DNA of 64,000 nucleotides, taken from the NCBI GenBank assembly GCA_032622095.1, contig CP136061.1, forward strand, positions 43,655,797 through 43,719,796, in the 5' to 3' direction. Under the pieces are notes generated by a model that did no database searches, was not told where the DNA came from, and was given only the letters and a program-made list of their open reading frames with translations. A program made the position numbers and the translations under genes. Positions 7,961 through 13,782 of the stretch are shown here, in pieces. The DNA is from Siphonodentalium dalli. Lineage: Eukaryota; Mollusca; Scaphopoda; Gadilida; Siphonodentaliidae. How positions within the stretch are numbered: position 1 is the stretch's first letter; each line of letters starts with the position of its first letter.

Positions 7961-8731
7961 TCTCAAATTGCATATGTATATTTGTGGTGACAGCTAGTTA
8001 AGCCAACGTTTCTTTTCCGAATTCCGGAAACATGAACCTCAGCATCCATCTTGGATTTTACTCTTTGCATCATTAAAGTTTTTGGGATACGTTGCAGCCC
8101 GAATCAGTCCGTCTGCATATTGGTTGTCACGATTTGAATCTATCGGCAAACCATATAGCCCACATTTATGAGCAGGTAATTATCTAATTGGACATGCACG
8201 ATCAAGCGTCATGGGTAATGTGGCCTTGTAAGCACCATGTGCTTGGTCGCGAGTGAACCAGGTATCTTGTTCTGATATATGGGTATATGGGTATATTTGA
8301 ATTTCTAATATTAAATTTATAATATTTCCCCAATGTACGTGACTTATTTTTTGTAAAATAATTCTTGGGCGATCTTCTTTTCTTGTCATAATTGTCACCG
8401 GGAATGGGCAGTGATGGCTTGCATGGAACATTCCGCCAGTCATATTTTAGATATAGATAGTAAGTTCATATGAAATGAAAGAGAGAAACTTAGCGTGCAC
8501 CTGTCGAATCTTATGTGAATCTAAGCGTAGCATAATCAACTACTTCACATGTCAAATAAATTATTTCTTATTTCTACGCAATTGACACATGCCAACTAAT
8601 TGGCATATCCACTTTAAAGAACTAGACATAAGTCTTGATTCATATTGACAGAGCACTTAATAGAGGATTTGAATAGAACATTCACGTCGCGCCATGCATT
8701 TTTTTTAGGATGCAGGCTAATGAGAGAGGGG
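7961..8731. other. No gene or repeat recognised
   Basis: Mostly unique AT-rich sequence up to the TIR tip at 8732. No motif-bearing frame on either strand. Confidence 0.5.
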
Positions 8732-8865
8732 TAGTATAGTCGTTGTGGTGATTTTGGACGGTGAACGTAGAAAAACTTGTTATAAAGCCAGTTTTGGTGT
8801 CATTTTGACCGGGAATGTTTGGACAACAATATATCCAAAATCCGCTAAAATCCGGTTTGGGGAAA
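8732..8865 (+). repeat. Left terminal inverted repeat (outer copy)
   Basis: Begins TAGTATAGTCGTTGTGGTG and ends near TTTGGGGAAA. It pairs with the reverse complement of 13653-13782; the strongest stretch is ATATCCAAAATCCGCTAAAA. Confidence 0.8.
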
Positions 8866-9411
8866 TTGTTTTACAGTCATTTGAATACAGGACGTTTCGT
8901 CATTATGCCACAAAATTTTACTTGTGTTAGCTCGCAAACCACTAAGGCGTGGCAAGTTCGCATGAATAATTGTCATATGATGACACGACAACATGACCCA
9001 CCACAGTGTAAGCCATATTTGCCCCCACCAATAAAGAGCGTCGAGTAAAATACCATACATAAAGAGCGTTTTGTGAGCGTTGAAGGAAACACCACAATAA
9101 GCCATGTGTGCGCTCCAGTGATAAAGCACGTTATCATAGAACGACATAACGCACTTCACTGCAGTTGTGCAAACCACAAGTCGCATTGTTCAGTTGTTTC
9201 TAATATATCACTTCGATTTGTATCTCTAATTGTGAAAGTTGTAAAAGTAGCTTTTTTAGGAGTCGGACAAATGTTTCCTGTTGAAAACTAACGGTGACAA
9301 CGTACGCAGGAGATTTGTTTTGGTTAATTTGATTGCTTCATTCGTTGTTCTCGTGTTCTGTTTTATTATTGCATATTTATTCTCGCTCTATTTCATTTCT
9401 CATTGTTGATA

Positions 9412-9660
9412 ATGGCCGACAATCGTACCGTCGGCGATGAGCTTAACCCAGCTGAAGACCTCTGTGTCATATGTGGTTTTGGTTTTGTTAATGATCCACC
9501 GGTAAAGGTGGGGGCAAAAGGTATTGTGACTCTCATAAGCTTTTGCGGACAACGGGGGCGACCTAATTTGAAACAATACCTCACCGCGCGCAGCCAGGTG
9601 ACGCCTGTCGACAAAGTGCTGGTGCATGCAGGTTGCCGGAGAGATTTTACCGACACATAA
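9412..9660 (+). pseudogene. Duplicated N-terminal fragment of the CXC transposase-like gene
   Basis: ATG at 9412 opens MADNRTVGDELNPAEDLCVI and the frame runs to a TAA at 9658-9660, giving 82 residues. It carries C-V-I-C-G-F-G-F near residue 18 and H-A-G-C-R-R-D-F near the end, a Cys/His arrangement that probably binds zinc. It is the same as the start of the longer copy at 10384, including the premature stop, so the stop arose before the duplication. The fragment ends at the junction with the second TIR copy and has no downstream continuation. If transcribed, it could yield a finger-only peptide; there is no evidence that it does. Confidence 0.75.
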
Positions 9661-9702
9661 AGAAAGACACAAGATAATTTGGTGGTTTCAGAAGCGAAAA
9701 GA

Positions 9703-9836
9703 TAGTATAGTCGTTGTGGTGATTTTGGACGGTGAACGTAGAAAAACTTGTTATAAAGCCAGTTTTGGTGTCATTTTGACCGGGAATGTTTGGACAACAA
9801 TATATCCAAAATCCGCTAAAATCCGGTTTGGGGAAA
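9703..9836 (+). repeat. Left terminal inverted repeat (inner copy)
   Basis: Identical by eye to 8732-8865. The duplication junction falls exactly at its first base: AGCGAAAAGA from inside the first copy is followed immediately by TAGTATAG. Confidence 0.8.
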
Positions 9837-10383
9837 TTGTTTTACAGTCATTTGAATACAGGACGTTTCGTCATTATGCCACAAAATTTTACTTGTGTTA
9901 GCTCGCAAACCACTAAGGCGTGGCAAGTTCGCATGAATAATTGTCATATGATGATACGACAACATGACCCACCACAGTGTAAGCCATATTTGCCCCCACC
10001 AATAAAGAGCGTTGTGTAAAATACCATACATAAAGAGCGTTTTGTGAGCGTTGAAGGAAAACACCACAATAAGCCATGTGTGCGCTCCAGTGATAAAGCA
10101 CGTTATCATAGAACGACATAACGCACTTCACTGCAGTTGTGCAAACCACAAGTCGCATTGTTCAGTTGTTTCTAATATATCACTTCGATTTGTATCTCTA
10201 ATTGTGAAAGTTGTAAAAGTAGCTTTTTTAGGAGTCGGACAAATGTTTCCTGTTGAAAACTAACGGTGACAACGTACGCAGGAGATTTGTTTTGGTTAAT
10301 TTGATTGCTTCATTCGTTGTTCTCGTGTTCTGTTTTATTATTGCATATTTATTCTCGCTCTATTTCATTTCTCATTGTTGATA

Positions 10384-13342
10384 ATGGCCGACAATCGTAC
10401 CGTCGGCGATGAGCTTAACCCAGCTGAAGACCTCTGTGTCATATGTGGTTTTGGTTTTGTTAATGATCCACCGGTAAAGGTGGGGGCAAAAGGTATTGTG
10501 ACTCTCATAAGCTTTTGCGGACAACGGGGGCGACCTAATTTGAAACAATACCTCACCGCGCGCAGCCAGGTGACGCCTGTCGACAAAGTGCTGGTGCATG
10601 CAGGTTGCCGGAGAGATTTTACCGACACATAAAGAAAGACACAAGATAATTTGGTGGTTTCAGAAGCGAAAAGACTACGATCTGATGCAACGCCAATCAA
10701 TATAGCAGAAGACTGCTTAATATGTGGAGTTCATACAAGCACTGATGTTAGACACCCAGATAGGTCCACACCAATGAGCCAAGTAGAGACCATCCCTTTC
10801 AGGGACAAGCTCTTACAGTGCTGTGCGCATAGACAGGATGCTTTAGCATATGACGTGGAGAAGCGCATTCAAGGGCGCATTGACTTGGTAGCAGCATAGG
10901 CCGTTTACCACCACGGATATCTGACTCGATTCTTGCAAGGCAAGGGTGTAAGTCAACCCGAAACAGGAAAAGCAGGTCGAAGATCAGATCAGGGTATGAA
11001 ACATTGGTTCGAAACGATTTGTAATTGGCTCGAGACAGAAGCTGGTGCTGAATGATACACTGTTAGTGAGTTACATTCCAGAATGGTTGAATTCGCAGGC
11101 GAGTCAGAGGTTTATACTATTAAAAGTTTGAAAGGTAACTTAGAGGAATACTATGCAGAATTCATTTTTTTCGCCGAGGTTAAGGGACGAAAGGATGTCG
11201 TTTGTTTTCGAAATATGGCCAAATTCATTATAAATGAAAAGTGGTACATTGATAAAAAAACAGGATTTAGATGAGGAGGCAGACAGGATTGTCTTGACTG
11301 CAGCAAGAATAATAAAAGCACAAATAAGGGAGGCCGATTTCAGTCGCGAATCTTATCCACCCAGTGATGCTATATCTATTATTAGTCAGGGGCGAAATTG
11401 GATCCCGAATCACCTGCAAAGCCTACTAAAGATTTTAATTCCGTCCGATGTCAATCATGTCAAGCAGAATAGCATCGGTCATTCCATTGTACAGGGTGCT
11501 CGTCCACATTCGGTTATAACACCAACGCTGTTTGGACTGGGTGTAGAAATGGACAATGTGTTTGGTTCCAAATGGCTAGTGAACGAGTTATCCTGGTTGG
11601 GATTCTCTGTTACCCACGATGAAGTTGAGAGGTACAAGCAATCCGTCATTCAGACCGAAACGCCCAGTCAAATACTAACTGACTATGCACCCGGTGCCTT
11701 CGTTCAGTGGGTGGCAGATACTGTCGACCACAACATAGCAACTCTATATGGCAAGGGGACCTTCCATGGAATGGGGATAGTTGCAATATATGCACCCATG
11801 AATCAATCAGCACTGAACATGAAATCGCGTGTAATCATGAGACAAAAGCGGTTGAGGGTTGATGAGCTCGTGAAAAACAAAGGAGTGTCCATCTCCCAAT
11901 ATGTTGATGTTATTGGCAAAGGAATTTCCAATATCAAACTGAAACCTCTTCTTCATTTGGCCACACCATATACCCTCCCATCTGACCTCAGCACAGATCT
12001 GCTGTGGCACTCAGCATGCTTTTTCAGTAAGAGTGAAAAACCTAGCGCGAACTGGTCAGGTTTCATGCAAAGTGCTTACTCGCAGGACGACACTCTGACC
12101 GCTGAGAAATCAGATGTTCTGTTCCTTCCCATCATCGATCTGAATCCGTCAGATGACGATTGCATTTATTCTACACTCATTTATGTTGAGGAACAGGCAC
12201 GTAGATTGAACATCCACACGCCATATATCACTTTCGACCAGCCGTTGTGGCTCAAGGCTGTAAACATAATAAGTTCTAAGTCGATGAACATAGTGTGTAG
12301 GCTGTGCGGATTTCACACTGTAATGAGTTTCATGGGGAGTATCGGTTCGATGATGAAGGGGTCGGGGTTAGAAGAAGCTTTGGAGAAAGTGTACGGTCAG
12401 AACACAGTGACCCATATGATATCTGGAAAGGCAGTGTCGAGGGCATTGCGTGGTTACTACCTAGTTGAGGCTGCGCTTTTCAATAAGTTGATAGCTGAAG
12501 TTGTCCCAGTTGAAAAGGACGACAGTTCTGCGGACATCGAATCGGTAATGGAACAAGATGACACAGAAGCCTCGCACATGCAACAGTGTGATGTACACGT
12601 TGTTGGTGAAAACACGATGGGCAAAATGCACCAGAGTGGAATGGACAGAATACAAAAACTGCGTGAAGAGATTGAAATTGGCGTTGTTCCTATATCCGGT
12701 GGCTGCGGACTCAACTGAACTGTTGAAGGTCGAGCAATGTATCAATTGTTATAAATCACTGCTTGTCAAAGAATCCCTCACAGCAAAATTGTGGGTGCAG
12801 TATATGGATTATGTGCAAACCTTAAAGAACTTAATCCGTGCTGAGCGAACAGGGGATTGGAATCTGCATATTGTAACATTAGGGAAGATGCTGAACCTCT
12901 TCGCCGCCACTAGTCATATAAATTACGCAAAGAGCTGCAGACTATATCTCCAAATGATGCTAGAATTACCAGTGAAGCATCCTTGGGTACATCAGTGTTT
13001 GAGGAACATGGCTTCCATGTAGCCCGTAGAAGTAGCAGATTATGGGCGGGGTTATCAACCGATCTTATACACTGAATAATGACGTATTGAATGCTGATGG
13101 GTGGGGTTGGGAACGACGTGGTGAGGATCTTTCCCCAGTCATGACTGACCAGAATGCAGCCCCAGACAAATTGCTCAAGTTTGTACGGTGCAAGTGTAAG
13201 ATGTCATAAAAAACCATGTAACACCAATGTGTGTACATGTCGCAAACATGGTCTGAAATGTGTTATCGCTTGTGGAGATTGTCGTGGAGAGGGCTGCGTG
13301 AATTCAGAAGAGGTTCTCATAGATGACGAGGGTGAGGTCTGA
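10384..13342 (+). pseudogene. Decayed transposase-like gene: Cys fingers, putative catalytic core, C-terminal CXC motif
   Basis: One protein can be followed across 3 kb through broken frames. Frame 1 (10384-11270) begins MADNRTVGDEL, with finger 1 (C-V-I-C..C-R-R-D-F), finger 2 (C-L-I-C-G..C-C-A-H-R), then a Y-H-H-G-Y-L-T-R-F segment. In-frame stops are TAA at 10630, TAG at 10897 and TGA about 11053. A frameshift in an A-run near 11262 leads to the longest open piece (to 12718, about 490 residues). It holds VADTVDHNIATL and FHGMGI (about 11711-11780), FDQPLWLKA (about 12232), GFHTVMSF and KAVSRALRGYY. Further shifts carry it to LWVQYMDY, IRAERTGDW and a piece ending RRSSRLWAGLSTDL (about 13075). 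After a gap come SPVMTDQNAAPDKLL and a CXC motif RCKCK / CTCRKHGLKC / CGDCRGEGC, itself split by a frameshift near 13208. From recall, similar intact proteins occur in many copies in invertebrate genomes, often labelled tesmin/TSO1-like CXC. The Asp/His-rich motifs suggest a DDE-type nuclease core; that is inference. Confidence 0.8.
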
Positions 13343-13652
13343 GTATATATGATATATTTGACACACAAGTGTCGAAATCATGAAGTATTTCTCATTCTGG
13401 TCATCACTGGCTGATTTCGATCAACAAAATAAACAAAAGAAATAATTGTCATTTTAGCGGCCATTTTTGGTTGCCATCTTTTGACTCTGCGACTGATATT
13501 TGGTCAGTGTGACTCCCGTGGAATCCTTTGTCAAACGTGATGAAATTTGTACGAGAGCAAACTCATTACCCCTACCTCACAATGGACTAATGCTGATTGG
13601 GGAATATTTATAATCGTTGGCCGCCACATTGGACGCCATCTTGAATCCTGAA

Positions 13653-13782
13653 TTTTCCCCAAGGCGGATTTTAGCGGATTTTGGATATGTTATTCCTGAT
13701 ACTTTTGCGCGCAAAATGAGACCAAAACCAGCGTTATAACAATTTTTTCCAGGTTCAACCTCCCGACGACCACACTAGGGTA
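13653..13782 (-). repeat. Right terminal inverted repeat
   Basis: Reverse complement of the left ends with scattered differences. Its tip reads CACTAGGGTA on the plus strand. Inside it sits TATTCCTGATA, a piece also seen beside the ATAAAGAGCGTT motif elsewhere in the window. Confidence 0.78.

Follow-up and report, generated by a model that had tools for sequence, protein, structure and literature searches.

Structure of the element and its decayed gene

A DNA transposon with long inverted ends occupies positions 8732 to 13777 of the 64,000-nt stretch of the Siphonodentalium dalli genome that we analyzed (contig CP136061.1, positions 43,655,797 to 43,719,796; hereafter the window). The inverted arms (8756-8865 and 9727-9836 versus 13654-13763) are 110 nt long and 79% complementary, and the tips of the element, as placed by alignment with sibling copies, read TAGTATAGTCG at 8732 and CGACCACACTA ending at 13777; termini of the form TAGT...ACTA are found in the 17 copies compared. 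Between these ends lies the decayed gene that the original prediction, made from the letters of the window alone, had described there. In particular, a 494-amino-acid open frame contains the core motifs on which that prediction was built (VADTVDHN, FHGMGI, FDQPLWLK and GFH), and the CXC motif that it had reported is located in a separate open frame further downstream (Table 1). The N-terminal part of the window copy is interrupted by premature stops and frameshifts, and relatives with open frames exist.

The 5′ end of the window copy is present twice. The GGG target-site duplication encloses the outer 5′ copy and excludes the inner one, so the two 5′ copies represent a tandem duplication within one insertion. 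The two 971-bp units differ by 3 substitutions and 2 gap columns, and only one 5′ tip is present at each of the 14 other loci that were checked. The duplication starts at the tip, as if it had arisen by a nested insertion followed by recombination, or by aberrant repair after cutting of the tip.

Table 1. Features of the transposon in the window (positions are those of the window; an empty cell means that no strand or remark applies)
Feature	Positions	Strand	Remark
Whole element	8732..13777	+	5,046 bp including the 971-bp 5′ tandem duplication; tips common to sibling copies
Left target-site duplication	8729..8731		GGG
Right target-site duplication	13778..13780		GGG
Outer 5′ terminal inverted repeat	8732..8865	+	
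3′ terminal inverted repeat	13654..13777	-	
971-bp 5′ tandem duplication, unit 1	8732..9702	+	Starts exactly at the transposon tip; contains the N-terminal coding piece a second time, from ATG 9412
971-bp 5′ tandem duplication, unit 2	9703..10673	+	Runs on into the rest of the element
24-bp subterminal block, outer 5′ end	8831..8854	+	ATATCCAAAATCCGCTAAAATCCG; 10-bp-phased repeat, putative protein-binding site
24-bp subterminal block, inner 5′ end	9802..9825	+	
N-terminal coding piece, first CxxC...HxxC module	10384..10632	+	Terminated by premature stop
Second Cys-module piece	10633..10899	+	Terminated by premature stop
Coding piece 5′ of the core	11056..11274	+	Frame differs from that of the core
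DDE-like transposase core	11234..12718	+	494-amino-acid open frame; candidate acids D162 or D165, D335, E381
Linker coding piece	12549..13022	+	Shifted frame
Junction of the common ~1.6-kb internal deletion	13068..13069		Deletion took out the nuclease region and put the CXC tail out of frame
Open frame with C-terminal CXC tail remnant	13145..13342	+	Aligned portion 13202-13339
24-bp subterminal block, 3′ end	13665..13688	-	Opposite orientation

A multicopy family with 3-bp target-site duplications

To place the window copy among its relatives, we searched its own genome (2.23 Gb in 9 contigs) and fetched 15 loci, a further 8 for full-length members and 4 belonging to a short non-autonomous group. 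First-look candidate counts, which are rough, came to 955 for the 5′ end (a loose count, with all 40 of those scored matching at E ≤ 2.2e-56), 2,229 for the 3′ end (40 scored) and 2,355 for the core protein (87 scored; 89 matches listed, all at E ≤ 2.1e-56). An exact 3-bp duplication flanks 13 of the 17 copies with both ends, that is, the window copy and 16 loci, whereas mismatched pairs of flanks share 3 bp in 3 of 272 cases; duplications of 4 bp and of 8 bp were each found in 0 of the 17. (L004, L005, L014, L019, L020 and L021, in which one or both ends were missing or unaligned in the fetched stretch, were excluded from this count.) L016 is flanked by the 3-bp duplication TAG (1/1), and all four copies of the gene-less short group by TAC, TAT, TTA or TGT, which brings the overall figure to 18 of 22 copies.

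Evidence of what an unoccupied target looks like comes from L015, which is inserted in a satellite with the unit GATATCACTAATTC. The unit occurs three times in the left flank and twice in the right, and joining the flanks on the 3-bp duplication restores the local satellite unit, as expected for an empty site. When the genome was searched with the joined flanks of L012, no match covered the junction well; one match at 90% identity starts 5 bases before it. The right flank of L012 (G000:C4:231363523-231363705) is itself part of another high-copy repeat, with 5,079 first-look candidates when the joined flanks serve as query. At two places 5′ ends follow one another in the same orientation, three of them at ~5.2-kb spacing (G000:C3:301167213-301177735, ~200 kb from a contig end) and two at ~5.0-kb spacing (G000:C5:104435745-104440854); each may be a tandem array of whole elements.

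The family thus has inverted repeats with fixed tips, a target duplication of constant length, and multiple copies in both long-frame and non-autonomous forms, which are the hallmarks of class II transposons with terminal inverted repeats. Rather than single-copy, intron-bearing genes that lack such ends, the relatives in this genome are multicopy, intronless open frames bounded by inverted repeats and target duplications. These findings bear out the original proposal of a DNA transposon, and that the family is a mobile element in this genome is as good as certain.

A phased subterminal block, and linkage of the ends to the core gene

Comparison of ends from five subfamilies revealed that 11 of 11 share ATATCC-AAAATCCGC[TA]AAAATCCG, a 10-bp-phased repeat that lies ~100 bp inside the tip. 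Agreement across the 11 ends is broken by one T/A position and by one 1-base insertion, in the 5′ end of L013. In the five subfamilies the 5′ site lies 9-10 bp deeper than the 3′ site (the 5′ end of L019 is missing). The exact 24-mer occurs 4,441 times in the genome (2,222 + 2,219), and a reversed-pattern control occurs 0 times. Among the first 100 sites listed, neighbors within 8 kb of each other face inward in 29 cases, outward in 3, and in the same direction in 2 (++) and 2 (--), so that inward-facing pairs take in 58 of these 100 sites. The block looks like a putative binding site for the protein encoded by the element. A further conserved stretch, AAGATGGCGTCCAA (ATATGGCGTCCAA in L018), is present at 6 of 6 three-prime ends (window copy, L013, L015, L016, L018 and L019). 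Within it, AAGATGGCG is also found at the 5′ end of L014, the other 5′ stretches compared being mostly too short to judge; it resembles a YY1 site.

We also asked how often the ends accompany the core. A listed core lies downstream of 30 of 40 five-prime ends and upstream of 28 of 40 three-prime ends, on the correct strand, as compared with ~6e-5 expected per end. The expectation that copies of the inverted repeat go with the gene held at these ends; there is also one group of elements in which such ends bracket no gene. This group, 2.18 kb in length, comprises L028-L031 (G000:C1, near 37 kb, 1.755 Mb, 56.095 Mb and 36.297 Mb). Its ends are hybrid: one is most similar to the L016 subfamily, the other to L019. 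Its interior gave no blastn match to five nuclease-bearing loci and contains no frame above 110 amino acids. The existence of this gene-less group suggests that movement in trans requires no more of an element than its ends.

Full-length relatives encode one large protein

Full-length members (L013, L015, L016, L017, L018 and L023) are 5,703-6,468 bp long and encode a single intronless protein of ~1,500-1,600 amino acids. The clearest of them, L016, has an uninterrupted stop-to-stop frame of 1,585 amino acids (~1,547 from the first Met) within a 5,923-bp element, and frames of at least 1,575 amino acids are open at six places among the matches listed, L016 included. L017, L018 and L023 are 6,085 bp each and 98.8-99.2% identical to one another. 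At its N terminus the protein has two Cys-modules (CxxC...HxxC in L013), which are followed by a DDE-like core and a linker; next come a segment with acidic motifs, probably a nuclease, and finally a nine-cysteine CXC tail.

The core has the invariant blocks QWVA--VDHN, FHGMG, LPIIDLNPSD, TFDQPLW, GFH and GSGL-EALE. As candidates for the DDE acids we propose D162 or D165, D335 and E381 (window numbering); D162 is kept in 6 of 7 rows, with N in L015, and D165 in 7 of 7. Pfam searches with seven members listed no transposase family at E up to 10. A sequence search of the PDB with the core returned one row at chance level (E 1), and one with a profile of the full protein returned none. Among viral contigs there were 0 pattern matches for the core, and 58 for the nuclease alignment and 39 for the full alignment, none of them a relative by tblastn; phage records gave no match.

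The segment that follows the linker contains, in L016 and others, the motifs VIDGG, VFDGY, DADT, ADDTD and GCDTTSA, five acidic motifs that match those of FEN1/XPG enzymes in order and rough spacing. A pattern for these motifs, composed after inspection of both families, was found in 5 of 5 archaeal FEN1s, in 5 of 7 nuclease rows of the family and in 0 of 140,000 shuffles; it is absent from the rest of the L016 protein and from the window frames of at least 200 amino acids (0/2). As for the two rows that do not match, the L021 piece is without the first part and L022 has lost the first acid. Searches of the PDB gave two chance-level rows with the nuclease piece (E 0.28 and 0.48) and one with the nuclease profile (E 1). 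Weak Pfam rows, on which we do not rely, were LacAB_rpiB in 4 of 7 (best E 0.002, short of the cut-off) and NYN_YacP in 1 of 7 (E 0.062). On the strength of its acidic motifs, the segment is probably a FEN1/XPG-like flap nuclease, and it is the part that the window copy has lost.

In the full-length relatives the CXC tail is part of the transposon's own protein, as the original prediction had supposed for the window copy. All seven members other than the window copy have the nine cysteines (a count for which several alignments were combined, since four alignment rows begin after the first cysteine), L015 has one more, and in the window piece the reading frame is broken at the start. The tail includes a C-x4-C-x-C-x6-C-x3-C stretch, and its spacing agrees with the CXC consensus. 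Profile scores were low: the window piece reached 8.6 bits and the L022 piece 8.1 bits against Pfam TCR, short of the cut-off of 23.5, and among eight members TCR was listed for 7 (best E 0.095) and MSL2-CXC for 5 (best E 0.017). A PDB search with the CXC profile returned 0 matches. A Hydractinia gene, which may or may not be related, carries the name 'CXC domain-containing protein-like' in a published report (PMC9926710).

Internal deletion and selection among the copies

L013 is a nuclease-bearing sister of the window copy that is 5,703 bp long, is ~95% identical to it and has a stop-to-stop frame of 1,494 amino acids, itself shifted before the CXC tail. Compared with L013, the window copy and its 4.1-kb siblings are without ~1.6 kb of coding sequence at 13068|13069, a loss that puts the CXC tail out of frame. 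The junction is identical in 11 of 12 derivative loci (L001-L012); in L004 the match ends before it. The shared junction is most simply explained by one deletion event that was later multiplied, and the pairwise distances among eleven derivatives, 0.8-2.4%, make the burst look recent. With its internal deletion, 5′ tandem duplication, stops and frameshifts, the window copy is non-autonomous. Elsewhere in the genome, a nuclease match lies within 4.5 kb downstream of at least 13 of 68 core copies examined. The core copies were drawn from the 89 listed (67 of 69 at ≥77% identity, the 2 omitted being second pieces, and 1 of 20 at 58-65%), and the 39 nuclease matches were hand-picked for high identity from 117, with a few of 84-97% omitted, mostly short or second pieces.

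To ask how selection has acted on the core, we estimated the ratio of nonsynonymous to synonymous substitutions per site (dN/dS) by the method of Nei and Gojobori. The ratio was 1.08 over the 78 pairs formed by 13 deletion derivatives (among them the window copy), 0.385 between the derivatives and L013, and 0.083 between L013 and L015, which represent two subfamilies; the last value is rough because dS is 2.27, and in four more distant pairs synonymous sites were saturated. Nuclease-bearing siblings also had ratios of ~1 (1.13 for L017/L018/L023 and 1.03 for L014-L015). These findings indicate that copies drift once they are inserted and that selection holds the lineages, as it does in transposons.

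Placement of the family and competing readings

We consider the element to be probably an Academ-type (AcademX-like) DNA transposon, an assignment that rests on structure rather than homology and was made because the length of the target duplication, the nuclease and the size fit. The nuclease of AcademX elements is of the XPG type, and the Academ superfamily was reportedly defined by Kapitonov and Jurka in 2010, by Kojima in 2020 and by Yuan and Wessler in 2011. In the portions of the reports that describe them, AcademX elements have target duplications of 3 or 4 bp and encode a nuclease (PMC10045372), and curated bivalve Academ elements have a mean length of 5,565 bp (PMC10294476). Here the duplications are of 3 bp, and the full-length members have lengths near ~5.6 kb. 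The original prediction, which could place the element in no named superfamily, was probably too cautious in this respect.

Several results weigh against this reading or parts of it. With respect to mobility, no perfect duplication was found in 4 of 22 copies (L003, L006, L009 and L023), and no listed core was found at 10 of 40 five-prime and 12 of 40 three-prime ends, of which 2 of 10 and 4 of 12, respectively, have a listed nuclease match. With respect to the core, an AlphaFold2 model of the window core protein alone had a mean pLDDT of 32.9 and was uninformative as to an RNase H-like DDE fold, and Pfam searches with core and nuclease pieces gave no family at cut-off among the rows listed and no transposase or XPG family among the weak matches. 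With respect to the nuclease, the acidic pattern was composed after the fact, Pfam XPG_I was found at 12 places in the genome and at none of the listed element places (compared by eye), and alignment by hhalign to five archaeal FEN1s scored 18.5 as compared with 19.7 for a reversed control and 27.5 for the best of 100 shuffles, both profiles being shallow (Neff ~1.8). For the tail, the unrelated CFSR family was listed in 1 of 8 members at E 0.009, better than the best values for MSL2-CXC or TCR. Because nuclease-bearing siblings also have dN/dS of ~1, the similar ratio among the derivatives is by itself no proof that they depend on help in trans. Finally, the assignment to Academ was made by features described for that superfamily rather than by homology.

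Alternatively, the element may be a DNA transposon of an unnamed superfamily, CXC-tailed and nuclease-bearing, that would resemble AcademX only in the length of its duplication and the presence of a nuclease. In favor of this, no search result tied the family by sequence to a superfamily that has a name. A literature search pairing CXC with transposase also returned no such element by title, a weak result given that the papers defining Academ lie outside its coverage. Against this, duplication length, nuclease and size all match what the AcademX and Academ reports state in the parts concerned (PMC10045372, PMC10294476), and we regard an unnamed superfamily as unlikely.

Duplications of 3 bp are the canonical length for Harbinger and also fit EnSpm (PMC12730594), and so might point to a Harbinger- or EnSpm/CACTA-type element. 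However, the ends are TAGT...ACTA in the 17 copies compared, not CAC...GTG as the same part of that report has it for EnSpm/CACTA (PMC12730594), the seven members gave no Pfam transposase match, and a single large nuclease-bearing protein takes the place of a transposase paired with a Myb/SANT protein, all of which makes such an origin very improbable.

The original prediction leaned toward an element of the KDZ type (Kyakuja/Dileera/Zisupton). KDZ elements carry CxC domains, and a CXC-like tail is indeed present here. That leaning did not survive comparison of the target duplications, which are of 3 bp here (0/17 at 8 bp) and of 8 bp in Zisupton, the only KDZ group compared, as given in the relevant part of a report (PMC12730594); nor did the element proteins scanned have any KDZ-like or TET/JBP match in Pfam, so that a KDZ element is scarcely credible. 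Purifying selection between subfamilies would also suit a family of host genes that carry a CXC domain and happen to be flanked by unrelated inverted repeats. For this genome, such a reading can be practically dismissed in view of the linkage of ends to core far above expectation, the 3-bp duplications, the near-neutral divergence of sibling copies and the uninterrupted long frames. On these grounds we rejected the KDZ, Harbinger, CACTA and host-gene readings.

A possible mechanism and its implications

For an Academ-type element of this structure, we envisage that the Cys-modules, the CXC tail, or both would bind the subterminal 10-bp-phased repeat AAAATCCGC[TA] ~100 bp inside each end, that the DDE core would cut the ends and join them to target DNA at positions staggered by 3 bp, and that the nuclease may trim strands or flaps as the element is excised or joined. 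A single deletion event would have cost the subgroup of the window copy its nuclease, and the subgroup would then have multiplied by means of protein supplied by full-length copies. More tentatively, and as a possibility that we do not favor, the family may constitute a lineage, inside Academ or next to it, that is defined by its CXC tail. A single protein would then combine the DDE core, a nuclease of the flap type and a DNA-binding CXC tail that recognizes a 10-bp-phased subterminal repeat at both ends, the 5′ site lying one helical turn further in. If such a lineage exists, many invertebrate proteins labeled as CXC or as uncharacterized would in fact be transposases, and the derivatives that lack the nuclease would demonstrate that this enzyme is able to act in trans.

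In this family, a gene labeled 'CXC domain protein' would belong to a mobile element rather than to the host, and the evidence for mobility guards against scoring CXC-tailed genes as expansions of host genes. The naturally occurring nuclease-less derivatives offer a ready test of the role of the extra nuclease in transposition, and the 24-bp subterminal block, with its thousands of exact sites, serves as a simple marker for members of the family.

Comparison with known systems

The tail resembles the Tesmin/TSO1 (Pfam TCR) and MSL2-CXC domains in its nine cysteines and in the stretch of the CXC consensus described above; it differs from tesmin, which has paired CXC units, in having a single unit, and its scores are weak. 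The nuclease segment is like FEN1, XPG and EXO1 in the order and rough spacing of its acidic motifs (IDGG, VFDG, DxD, DDTD and GCD) and unlike them in giving no significant profile match. With the KDZ elements (Zisupton, Dileera and Kyakuja) the family shares a large protein with a cysteine-rich module of the CxC type. It departs from them in its 3-bp duplications, those of Zisupton being of 8 bp in the part of the report that deals with them (PMC12730594), and in the absence of a TET/JBP match from the proteins scanned.

The closest likeness is to Academ/AcademX, as portrayed in the relevant parts of two reports (PMC10045372, PMC10294476), with which the family has in common 3-bp duplications, terminal inverted repeats, a large protein with a probable XPG/FEN-type nuclease, and a length of 5.7-6.5 kb. 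Those parts mention neither the CXC tail nor a 10-bp-phased subterminal repeat. These two are the new details of an element that is most likely of a known kind.

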